From the NCBI GenBank assembly GCA_903885605.1, contig CAISJD010000096.1:1-50510 (forward strand): DNA of 50,510 bases. The letters are read 5' to 3'. Both the position numbers and the translations under genes were made by a program. This document shows, one piece after another, positions 8,110-32,066 of this stretch. Numbering within the stretch: the first letter of the stretch is position 1; each line of letters starts with the position of its first letter. A model generated the notes under the pieces. That model saw nothing but the letters and a program-made list of their open reading frames with translations, made no database searches and was not told the origin of the DNA. Source of the DNA: an uncultured Chthonomonas sp. Lineage in GTDB: Bacteria > Armatimonadota > Chthonomonadetes > Chthonomonadales > CAJBBX01.

Positions 8110-8457
8110 TAACTGTACGCTACTATACTCTCGATTTCCCGCCCGCCACCACGACGGCCTTCACAGATACGGCGGGACCGAGAGCGGCGAAGGCTCATGC
8201 TCATGCTGACGAGATGCCGTACCGGCCGACACGCTGCGACGGAGGCTGAAACTCCGCCCGCGTCGTGCTGTCCCTCCCGCCCCCCCCCCCCCGACCTCCA
8301 GCACACCCGGACCGGCTAGCGGCCGGTAGTCTCATGTGTGCTGCTTGCGCCACCGCACGGCGCGTTCTCCCTGCGCTCACGGTGCGGCAGACCGTCGTGG
8401 GAGCGTTGGGTTACGCCCCCCAGAGTCGGCAGCCGAGCCTGCCGAAGGAGTTGTGAA
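8110..8457 (+). other. Long 5' leader with a C13 homopolymer, no gene seen
   Basis: This 348-nt stretch lies between the promoter at 8081 and the start codon at 8458. It contains a run of 13 cytosines at 8280-8292, a short GGAG/CTCC hairpin near 8241-8255 and several small GC-rich inverted repeats. I see no riboswitch or ribozyme consensus that I can support. No convincing open reading frame with a Shine-Dalgarno is present apart from an in-frame extension of the WD40 gene from 8338, which would place the signal peptide internally. Confidence 0.45.
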
Positions 8458-27493: not shown

Positions 27494-27724
27494 CTACCAA
27501 ACGATCTCTCCACGCTCCAGTTGGCCCTCGTAACTCACCAGATCGGCAAGGTAGTGGTCAATGCCACGATCGGCGAGTTGCATGCCTTCCTCGAAGCCCT
27601 GCCATGCCTCCCACCGCGCGGCGCTGTGGCGGGTGACGAGGAAGTCCACGTAGTCGCTGACCTCCCGGGCGAGGGGTTCGGGAAGCGTTCGAATCTGGGC
27701 TATGGTCGCATCAAGCGTTGTCAT
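27494..27724 (-). CDS. Small DUF2281-like protein (antitoxin-like), without an obvious partner
   Basis: A 76-residue protein (MTTLDATIAQIRTLPEPL...) begins at the ATG at 27724, with a purine-rich AAGGAACGG upstream. The N-terminal half, with its sequence LAREVSDYVDFLVTRH, resembles the short DUF2281 proteins often found as antitoxin-like partners of PIN-domain toxins. The C-terminal half is acidic and helical. No PIN or other toxin gene adjoins it: the next gene on the strand is the gluconolactonase-like gene 69 bp downstream. It may be a remnant or a stand-alone protein. Function unproven. Confidence 0.65.
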   Translation of the reverse strand: MTTLDATIAQIRTLPEPLAREVSDYVDFLVTRHSAARWEAWQGFEEGMQLADRGIDHYLADLVSYEGQLERGEIVW

Positions 27725-29993: not shown

Positions 29994-30049
29994 GGTTTCC
30001 TGGGATGGCTGGATTTCCCGGACGGGAAATCGGGTAGTATCAGGAAACC
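29994..30049. promoter_or_regulatory. Concentric four-half-site operator of the AbiE-type module
   Basis: Two related 9-mers on the top strand, GGTTTCCTG (29994-30002) and GATTTCCCG (30012-30020), are each repeated exactly in reverse as CGGGAAATC (30023-30031) and CAGGAAACC (30041-30049). Inner and outer repeats share the same centre (30021.5), and the half-sites are spaced 18 bp on both sides. The pair in each arm agrees at 7 of 9 positions. Known AbiEi antitoxins bind inverted repeats at their own promoter, and this site ends 41 bp before the AbiEi-like start codon, so autoregulation is likely. Confidence 0.75.
30035..30040 (+). promoter_or_regulatory. Putative -10 element (TAGTAT) inside the operator
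   Basis: TAGTAT lies between the inner and outer right half-sites, about 50 nt before the ATG at 30091. A regulator bound to the operator would cover it. Confidence 0.45.
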
Positions 30050-30090
30050 AGTGACTCGATGGCTCGGCCAGGCGGCAGCGCGAGGTAAGG

Positions 30091-31218
30091 ATGGCGTCAA
30101 CTCCAACCAGGTCGATAGTGAGCTATGAGCGGCCGTGGCCTGTCGCCGACTGGGTGGCGCGTCTCAAGCAAGGGGCCGTGCAGTTCCCGCCCGCCACTAT
30201 CGGCCCGCTGGAACCGGCGCCTGCAGCCCTCGCCGACGGCTCTGCCCTGGGGGTCTCGGTGGGTTGGGGCCCTGAGGCCGCACGGTACGCGGCGGTCTAT
30301 CAACCATCAAGCACACCCAGGGCGCTGGCTGAGGCTGCTCTCAGGGCTCGGGCGGCGATGAACGCAACGGGAATGCATGGCCTCGTGATGGCGCCCTTCC
30401 TTGGCGACGCCGTCCTGTCCGAGCTTGAGGCCGCGGGCCTGAGCGGCATCGACCTATGTGGCAATGGCGTGGTCGTCGCATCCGGGTTCAGGCTGTGGCG
30501 CACTGGCAATCCGAACAGGTTCCGCGACACCCGCCCGCTCCGCAACCCGTTCGCGGGCGATAGCTCCATCTTCGCGCGGTGTTTCCTGCTCCGGCCGGAG
30601 TTCGGCTCCCTGAGCGATCTGCAGGCCTTCGCCCGGTCCCGGGCGCCCGGCGCCACCGGCGGCTCCGAAGCGGCGCTCGGACTGTCCACGGCGTCGAAGG
30701 TCGTCTCGGCGCTTGAGGCGGAGTTGGTGATCGCCCGGTGCGGTCGTGCTCTGCGGCTTGTCGATGCCGACCGGCTGGCCGACCTCCTGCGCGAGCGGGC
30801 CCCCGTCGCTGCGCCGCGACGGATTGTGGGCATCGTGCGCCTGGGGAGGCAGGCGGTCTGGGAGCGCCTGGCTGCCGCCGTGGGTTATCGTGGGTTCAGG
30901 TGCGTGGCCACCGGACTGGCCTCCGCGGCCGCCTATGGAGCGCTCCATGGCGTCGACCGGGTGTGCCTCTATGCAACCGACCCAGACAGGGCGGCTCAGC
31001 TGCTGGAGGTGACCGAAGGACCCGCGTTTGCCGATATCGAGATCATCGAAGCCGGCAAGCATCTTCAGTACTTCGACGCTCGAACGGCCGGGCCGGTCGC
31101 CTGGGCTTCGCCGATCCAGACATGGCTCGAACTGGCCCTGGCCGGCCCGCGCGAGCAAGACGCTGCCCGCCGGCTGCTGCGCCGGACCATGGCCGGTCCC
31201 GTGGAGCCGGTCAGGTGA
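30091..31218 (+). CDS. AbiEi-like antitoxin and transcriptional autoregulator (type IV toxin-antitoxin)
   Basis: The 375-residue protein starts at an ATG just after GAGGTAAGG. Its layout matches the AbiEi_2 type: an N-terminal region ending in LSGIDLCGNGVVV, then NPNRFRDTRPLRNPFAG, a winged-helix stretch around residues 165-240 (LLRPEFGSLSDLQAFAR, LSTASKVVSALEAELVI, LRLVDADRLADLL) and a C-terminal domain with GYRGFRCVATGLASAAAYG, which in the family contacts the toxin or regulates it. AbiEi proteins repress their operon and neutralise the AbiEii nucleotidyltransferase without stable complex formation. Here the stop overlaps the next start (GTGA), as expected for a coupled pair, and a symmetrical operator lies upstream. 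No signal peptide. Confidence 0.8.
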   Translation: MASTPTRSIVSYERPWPVADWVARLKQGAVQFPPATIGPLEPAPAALADGSALGVSVGWGPEAARYAAVYQPSSTPRALAEAALRARAAMNATGMHGLVMAPFLGDAVLSELEAAGLSGIDLCGNGVVVASGFRLWRTGNPNRFRDTRPLRNPFAGDSSIFARCFLLRPEFGSLSDLQAFARSRAPGATGGSEAALGLSTASKVVSALEAELVIARCGRALRLVDADRLADLLRERAPVAAPRRIVGIVRLGRQAVWERLAAAVGYRGFRCVATGLASAAAYGALHGVDRVCLYATDPDRAAQLLEVTEGPAFADIEIIEAGKHLQYFDARTAGPVAWASPIQTWLELALAGPREQDAARRLLRRTMAGPVEPVR

Positions 31219-32066
31219 ACGACCCGCTCACGCAAGGGCTGGTCGGCATCCTGGCCGAGCCTGAGGCGGCAGGACTGATCCTCGCGGGCGGCTTCGGGCT
31301 GTCGTTGAAGCGCCGGCACTTGTTAGAGACCCGTGCGCGAACGCTTTGCCCGGACCTTCCGGAAGCGCGCGCGACGATGGATCTTGACCTGTTCCTGCGG
31401 CTTGAGCTGTTCGGCGCCGGCGATGGCGGTCGCGGCATCATCTATATGCTGCGACGGCTAGGTTACTTAGAAGTCACCCCGCGGTGGCAGTTCAGGCATT
31501 CGGCCAGCGAGGTGGTCATCGACCTGCTTTCGCGAGAGCCGGGCCCAGGGAGCGGCGTGCCGGTCCGAGGAATTCGAGTTGGCGGAGGCGCCGGGGTGGG
31601 CGTGCATGGCCGCTTGGTTCGTGAGGCCTTTGCCGTCGAGGAACGGCCCGTGATCGTGCCGCTGGCCGGCGCCGACGCGGCCGCCCGTTGCGTAGCCGTG
31701 CCGCATCCGTATCCATGGCTCTGCATGAAGGTGCGGGCATCAACCGATTGGCTGAGGGGCAGAACCTCGCACGGCGTGCGGCCTCCGCCGCTACGCGCCG
31801 CGTCGCCGAAGCATGCCTTCGATGCCTGCCTGATCGTCGCGATGGTGACGGAGGCGGAGGTCGCGGGGGCTTGGTTGCTTGCTGAGCAGTATGCCGCCAA
31901 CCCGATGGCGGCTGAGATCGCCGACGAGGCGCGCGTCCTTTTCGGGCGCGATGACGCTCCGGGTTGGCTGGAGGCCCAACGGCAGGCCCATCGGGTCTTC
32001 AATCATGCCCTCATGTGGCCTGTGATGGCGGGGATGCTGGGTATGCGCCGCCTGAATGCCGGGTGA
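31215..32066 (+). CDS. AbiEii-like nucleotidyltransferase toxin
   Basis: Translation from the GTG at 31215, which overlaps the antitoxin stop, gives 283 residues beginning MNDPLTQGL. The polymerase-beta-type nucleotidyltransferase signature is visible: G25-G26 and S30 in LAGGFGLSLKRR and the metal-binding pair D56-x-D58 in ATMDLDLFL. A later segment with WLCMKVRASTDW and KHAFDACLIV corresponds to the lysine-containing and helical part seen in AbiEii/AbiGii-type proteins. Such toxins add nucleotides to tRNA or otherwise use NTPs to arrest growth, and AbiE modules can give abortive phage resistance. No frame damage is visible, so the module looks intact. Confidence 0.8.
   Translation: MNDPLTQGLVGILAEPEAAGLILAGGFGLSLKRRHLLETRARTLCPDLPEARATMDLDLFLRLELFGAGDGGRGIIYMLRRLGYLEVTPRWQFRHSASEVVIDLLSREPGPGSGVPVRGIRVGGGAGVGVHGRLVREAFAVEERPVIVPLAGADAAARCVAVPHPYPWLCMKVRASTDWLRGRTSHGVRPPPLRAASPKHAFDACLIVAMVTEAEVAGAWLLAEQYAANPMAAEIADEARVLFGRDDAPGWLEAQRQAHRVFNHALMWPVMAGMLGMRRLNAG

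Follow-up and report, generated by a model that had tools for sequence, protein, structure and literature searches.

The window analysed here, a 50.5-kb stretch of DNA, carries a two-gene operon preceded by a 56-bp element with nested two-fold symmetry. The first gene, ORF1 (30091..31218, plus strand), encodes a 375-amino-acid protein that is predicted to be an AbiEi-like antitoxin and autorepressor, as indicated by its homologues, by AbiEi_2 matches among its relatives and by an AlphaFold2 model combined with fold comparison. The second, ORF2 (31215..32066, plus strand), encodes 283 amino acids from a GTG start and is a candidate AbiEii-like nucleotidyltransferase toxin, on the basis of its motif residues (GGFG ... 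RATMDLD) and the AbiEii matches of its relatives. The ORF1 stop codon and the ORF2 GTG overlap by four bases, giving an antitoxin-first, toxin-second order with translational coupling. A likely ribosome-binding stretch (GAGGTAAGG, 30082..30090, plus strand), read from the sequence, lies directly before the ORF1 ATG. Elsewhere in the window, a small ORF of 76 amino acids (27494-27724, minus strand) has a near-threshold match to DUF2281 (E 2.8e-5) and stands by itself, flanked by a gluconolactonase-like gene and by a large ORF of 759 amino acids that has no Pfam match.

Geometry of the four-site element

The element comprises four 9-bp half-sites, each identified in the sequence and each keeping its position in an anchored alignment of 76 operators: an outer-left site (OL, GGTTTCCTG, 29994..30002, plus strand), an inner-left site (IL, GATTTCCCG, 30012..30020, plus strand), an inner-right site (IR, CGGGAAATC, 30023..30031, minus strand), which is the exact reverse complement of IL, and an outer-right site (OR, CAGGAAACC, 30041..30049, minus strand), the exact reverse complement of OL. 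The dyad lies between 30021 and 30022, the pitch is 18 bp on either arm and the sites together span 56 bp. A −10-like hexamer, TAGTAT (30035..30040, plus strand), assigned by position and homology, sits just before OR. An earlier note on this DNA had described four 9-mers around one dyad with an equal 18-bp pitch and a TAGTAT element, and all of these are exact on re-reading the sequence. The TTTC cores of the inner pair are 12 bp apart and the outer sites lie 18 bp farther out; the window's own operator has GGAT at −19..−16 from the dyad. The 18-bp pitch corresponds to 1.71 turns of B-DNA (roughly 257 degrees), placing the inner and outer sites of one arm about 103 degrees apart on straight DNA, so the four sites do not share one face of the helix, contrary to the suggestion in the earlier note.

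The window by itself makes only a suggestive case. Its top four-half-site score, with all pitches and gaps allowed, belongs to this element (38 of 42), whereas five shuffled windows peak at 34-37, which leaves it only modestly above chance; we therefore relied on comparison with homologues, where conservation gives the significance. GGTTTCCTG and its complement occur at this single locus, with no further copy in the 50.5 kb, and GATTTCCCG has one extra copy, at 8133. The two arms of this operator are the sole matches to TTTCCNG-N11-TTTCCNG in the whole 5.6-Mb genome. Since the pattern is single in the genome, we set aside a global-regulator site or the end of a mobile element.

Architecture of ORF1 and ORF2

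ORF1 has no Pfam match up to E 1 and was not recovered by a PF09952 family search of its own genome. As a query, however, it matches at E 3.6e-9 a homologue (L009, G136:C160) whose gene passes the PF09952 cut-off, and 14 of the 51 aligned ORF1 homologues match PF09952 (AbiEi_2). This family corresponds to COG4861 (PMC7251935), whose antitoxins pair with COG4849 toxins (PMC3985639) and to which Rv0837c belongs (PMC7319586). Judged by these matches, ORF1 is a divergent COG4861-type branch. The AbiEi_2 label given in the earlier note thus stands at the level of the family, although not as a Pfam match of ORF1 itself, and the broader proposal of an AbiEi-type module with its operator is supported. 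Sequence searches of ORF1 and ORF2 against solved structures returned a convincing relative for neither, and Foldseek gave no match in the PDB at E <= 0.001; the solved AbiEi and Rv2827c structures were absent among the Foldseek matches listed, which is uninformative either way.

The AlphaFold2 model of ORF1 (pLDDT 92.7, pTM 0.79) has three predicted domains. The central one is a winged helix-turn-helix (residues 151-236; 30541..30798, plus strand), which in fold comparison is similar to domains of the CRP and MarR types (Z up to 8.8) and contains an invariant R163. S202 and K203, with which the predicted recognition helix begins, are invariant in the 51 homologues as well, which matches the near-invariant TTTC core of the operators. 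The C-terminal domain (residues 251-371; 30841-31203) is nucleotidyltransferase-like, resembling TM1012 (Z 8.6 over 116 residues, rmsd 3.7) and the MenT1 toxin (Z 8.3 over 117 residues, rmsd 3.2). A likeness of AbiEi to nucleotidyltransferases such as MenT1 has been reported by DALI (PMC7319586), and the model suggests that antitoxin and toxin may be of common ancestry. The N-terminal domain (residues ~20-140, or 35-137 when delimited more narrowly; 30148-30510) appears restriction-endonuclease-like and weakly resembles EndoMS, a nuclease (Z 8.2, rmsd 5.3 over 105). Because Z values near 8 are in the range of common folds, we treat these fold matches as leads.

Residues of the PD-(D/E)XK type are present in the N-terminal domain of many relatives (D52 in 43, E69 in 40 and K71 in 38 of 51). 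All three are lost in the window's ORF1, which has A52, V69 and Q71. The D...ExK set in the extra N-terminal domain of most relatives would give these antitoxins a conserved nuclease-like site.

ORF2 matches AbiEii at E=0.019, which is below the cut-off, and AbiEii is matched by 8 of 38 relatives. G25, G26, R52, T54, D56, D58, H200 and D203 are invariant in the 38 ORF2 sequences, the GG and R.T.D.D motif residues among them. Of the 82 loci, about 56 have a full-length ORF2 homologue downstream of ORF1; the others are interrupted by the end of a contig or are broken. The ORF1 gene is absent from two same-genus genomes searched, so the operon appears to be an acquired module carrying its own control.

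The operator is conserved upstream of ORF1 homologues

With a cut-off of E 0.001, ORF1 homologues were found in 13 of 151 related genomes, the genome of the window counted, and in 22 of 291 genomes by a profile search of the phylum; 80 homologue loci were kept from a named genome collection. The labels of the metagenome-assembled genomes carrying these loci include Armatimonadetes, Planctomycetes, Deltaproteobacteria, Acidobacteria, Verrucomicrobia, Lentisphaerae, Fibrobacteres, Spirochaetales, Melainabacteria and Gemmatimonadetes, among others. The 51 aligned homologues form 48 clusters at 70% identity.

The geometry recurs across this sample. Direct 8-mer repeats spaced exactly 18 bp apart are present in 70 of 82 upstream regions, against about 6 per distance in shuffles. 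With the pitch set at 18, the four-site score reaches at least 30 in 76 of the 82, a level attained by 0.24% of shuffles and, among 920 natural control windows taken at these loci, by 13; at a score of at least 33 the comparison is 59 of 82 with 1 of 920. Pitches 17 and 19 show register slippage in T-runs, and at all pitches other than 17, 18 and 19 no more than 6 of the 82 upstream regions reach 30. The first-pass scan missed or misplaced a few operators (for example L095, L070, L082 and L092), owing to a short upstream stretch or a slipped register, and these were recovered with a position weight matrix. Applied in leave-one-out fashion, the matrix finds the operator in all 82 upstream regions (scores 17.7 to 56.5), compared with a mean of −28 and a maximum of 9.9 over 573 natural control windows. 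The earlier note had staked its reading on the half-sites being conserved upstream of homologues, which they are. The operator is almost certainly a conserved self-repression switch of this antitoxin family.

Some loci depart from the single four-site arrangement. About 23 of the 82 carry a second quad near the first, usually a weaker one; tandem quads lie roughly 60-80 bp apart before the antitoxin gene in L021, L024, L065, L079, L093, L100 and about 17 more, and also in L141, L143, L146 and L150, suggesting up to eight sites per promoter. At L016 (G022:C82), a quad covers the start codon of a sequence like the N-terminal half of ORF1, and this sequence continues into a long, unrelated ORF (637 amino acids in total); it is apparently a truncated or fused copy that has retained its operator.

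We find the same pitch among distant homologues, many of which match PF09952. In 16 of these, a pitch of 18 gives at least three half-sites in 11 and four in 7, whereas any other pitch gives at least three in at most 4 and four in at most 1. Most of them have the half-site TTTCA rather than TTTCC, and in those the inner spacing is 2 bp longer. Among plasmid-borne loci from Proteobacteria and Deinococcus, 9 of 10 carry four sites at pitch 18; most are annotated 'AbiEi family antitoxin' and adjoin AbiEii/AbiGii or a hypothetical protein. Three loci (L111, L114 and L116) have three sites, the inner pair and one outer, and two (L018 and L010) have the inner pair alone. Four half-sites are thus not obligatory across the superfamily, and we infer a core that binds an inner dimer, with optional outer protomers.

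Two-fold symmetry and covariation

Anchoring the alignment on the dyad yields a consensus of TTTC at −26..−23 and −8..−5 and GAAA at +4..+7 and +22..+25, with roughly 1.4-1.9 bits at each position, and A/T-rich stretches at −19..−16 and +16..+18. Complementarity is limited to the half-sites, spacer positions being at background. Beyond column composition, mirror partners covary most strongly (OL-OR, z=6.1; IL-IR, z=7.4), above same-arm neighbours (z=2.9 and 2.3). The nested symmetry that the earlier note had pointed out is therefore real, and side-by-side direct repeats are disfavoured as the unit by this pattern. Inner and outer pairs can also differ in their flanks within one operator: L081 has CCAG flanking its outer sites and CCGG its inner ones, so each ring is symmetric by itself. 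The concentric reading holds in this sense of separately symmetric inner and outer rings. The TTTC core common to all four sites suggests that one DNA-binding domain, present in four copies, would read them, in line with the two dimers or tetramer of the earlier note.

Divergence of the operator correlates with divergence of ORF1 for each of the three domains (Mantel r 0.42-0.54, 0 of 999 permutations). In partial Mantel tests r is −0.05 for the winged helix, 0.27 for the N-terminal domain and 0.26 for the C-terminal domain. We therefore do not take the winged helix to be the domain that tracks half-site divergence; the partial test fails to single it out, and part of the correlation is due to common descent.

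Overlap of the operator with the putative promoter and, in many loci, the start region

A sigma-70 scan found no full consensus promoter at the window's operator, where a consensus −35 is absent. Among 72 operators, a −10-like hexamer occurs in two places. A TAnnnT hexamer at −11..−6, overlapping IL, is present in 47, with TTG at −34..−32 in 32; in 12, including the window, the hexamer lies at +13..+18, just before OR. At this second place, that of TAGTAT, L027, L031, L036, L055 and L065 have TATAAT. As assigned from these hexamers, the operator covers the putative promoter in both classes.

In many loci the ATG comes directly after IR (+8) or OR (+26), as GAAAATG. The half-site AGGAAAATG is itself the start region in L026, L028, L046, L047 and others (ATG at +8 and/or +26), where the predicted starts would give very short 5′ leaders. 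Because 18 is a multiple of three, candidate ATGs at +8 and +26 share a frame.

Discussion

From the sequence comparisons, the 56-bp element is very probably the autoregulatory operator of the ORF1-ORF2 operon, read by four ORF1 winged helices. ORF1 would bind the operator through its winged helix and shut off its own promoter inside it. Four copies of the winged helix would read the four TTTC half-sites, two as a dimer on the inner pair and one protomer on each outer site, with the outer protomers related by the same two-fold axis as the inner dimer; the sites could fill cooperatively or stepwise, perhaps with the graded autorepression suggested in the earlier note. Because 18 bp is 1.7 turns, such an assembly would have to wrap or bend the DNA, rather than sit on one face.

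The same four sites can be paired otherwise, as two interleaved 30-bp inverted repeats (OL with IR and IL with OR), each dimer having its axis 9 bp off the central dyad. The cores within each of these pairs are 30 bp apart (2.86 turns), as near to one face as those of the inner pair, and OL-IR covaries too (z=5.1). The crosswise values (5.1 and 3.1), however, are below those of the mirror partners (7.4 for IL-IR and 6.1 for OL-OR), and operators with the inner pair alone (L018 and L010) or with one outer site added (L111, L114 and L116) fit an inner core, so that we regard the interleaved pairing as unlikely. A nested palindrome could also act in the transcript, as an RNA hairpin with a part in processing or attenuation or as an antitoxin-type RNA. 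The 56-mer does fold at −33 kcal/mol (z=−7.0), as any nested palindrome would, but a hairpin has no need for the likeness of OL to IL or for a fixed 18-bp direct repeat. Its complementarity ends at the half-sites, G-U and A-C mismatches number 38 and 26 with no clear preference, and no Rfam family fits. Furthermore, the −10-like hexamer at −11..−6 in most relatives would leave the left half of the operator untranscribed. We consider function as a hairpin highly improbable.

The protein that reads the operator might instead be encoded elsewhere, for example a host winged-helix or CRP/FNR-like regulator. In favour of this, divergence of the recognition helix alone does not explain that of the half-sites. 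Yet operator and ORF1 move together from phylum to phylum, and the single copy in this genome lies at ORF1; the lack of the ORF1 gene in the two same-genus genomes makes the module look self-controlled, and the AbiEi proteins that have been studied are, as a rule, documented autorepressors (PMC3985639, PMC7319586). We therefore consider an unlinked regulator very unlikely, and return to ORF1 as the probable binder and repressor.

By abundance, AbiE is stated to rank fourth among phage-defence systems (PMC11375011). In a literature search of limited coverage, we found no operator study of the COG4861 branch, the operator work on AbiEi being confined to the COG5340 branch. That AbiEi repressors bind paired inverted repeats, as the earlier note stated, is true of COG5340 AbiEi, although those operators differ in geometry from the one described here (PMC3985639, PMC7319586). 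In the Streptococcus agalactiae abiE system, the operator of AbiEi (COG5340) consists of a pair of 23-bp repeats separated by 3 bp, to which two monomers bind (PMC3985639), and bending and cooperativity are among the properties described (PMC7319586). The two systems share an antitoxin-first bicistronic operon and a winged-helix antitoxin, predicted as such for ORF1; the second gene of abiE encodes a DUF1814/AbiEii nucleotidyltransferase, of which ORF2 is a putative counterpart. Autorepression of abiE acts through inverted repeats over the promoter, and the ORF1 operator likewise overlaps its promoter, where we propose a similar repression. In contrast to the 23-3-23 arrangement, however, the ORF1 operator packs four 9-bp half-sites into 56 bp, with a direct pitch of 18 and inner cores 12 bp apart, and whereas COG5340 AbiEi has two domains with the winged helix first, the ORF1 model places an extra endonuclease-like domain before it.

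The Mycobacterium tuberculosis Rv2827c promoter contains two inverted-repeat pairs (IR1-IR2 and IR3-IR4) with graded affinities, thus also four sites for one AbiEi-type autorepressor, but these are tandem 23-bp pairs with 13-bp gaps within and 4 bp between, over about 131 bp, and are neither concentric nor at an 18-bp pitch (PMC7319586). Outside the family, the SorC-type tetrameric repressors DeoR and CggR place four DNA-binding domains on an operator of palindromic and direct repeats (PMC11229326), a mixture resembling that found here, where four domains are likewise proposed. They differ in belonging to another protein family, in having half-operators side by side over 39-45 bp, with DeoR asymmetric, and in lacking a toxin-antitoxin locus (PMC11229326). 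The distant COG4861/PF09952 (AbiEi_2) homologues have the pitch-18 operator in common with ORF1; the ORF1 branch differs from them in its half-site, TTTCC in place of TTTCA, and in an inner spacing that is shorter by 2 bp.

Extended to the COG4861/AbiEi_2 superfamily, these observations point to a broader proposal, which we hold with doubt and confidence in equal measure. Across Bacteria the superfamily would use a distinct operator code (up to four half-sites, an invariant 18-bp pitch and one dyad) read by a helix-wrapping assembly of four protomers. In many members the AGGAAAATG start region would allow promoter and translation start to be occluded together, and the antitoxin would have three domains: one like PD-(D/E)XK nucleases, a winged helix, and a pseudo-nucleotidyltransferase similar to the toxin with which it is paired.

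The COG4861 branch gains from this analysis a precise, predictive operator rule, in spacing, core and symmetry, that extends across many phyla. Operators of these systems can be found by scanning DNA, and their half-site variants provide a route to mapping winged-helix specificity. The 18-bp pitch, together with an inner core spacing of 12 or 14 bp, sets a geometric constraint for any structure of the complex.
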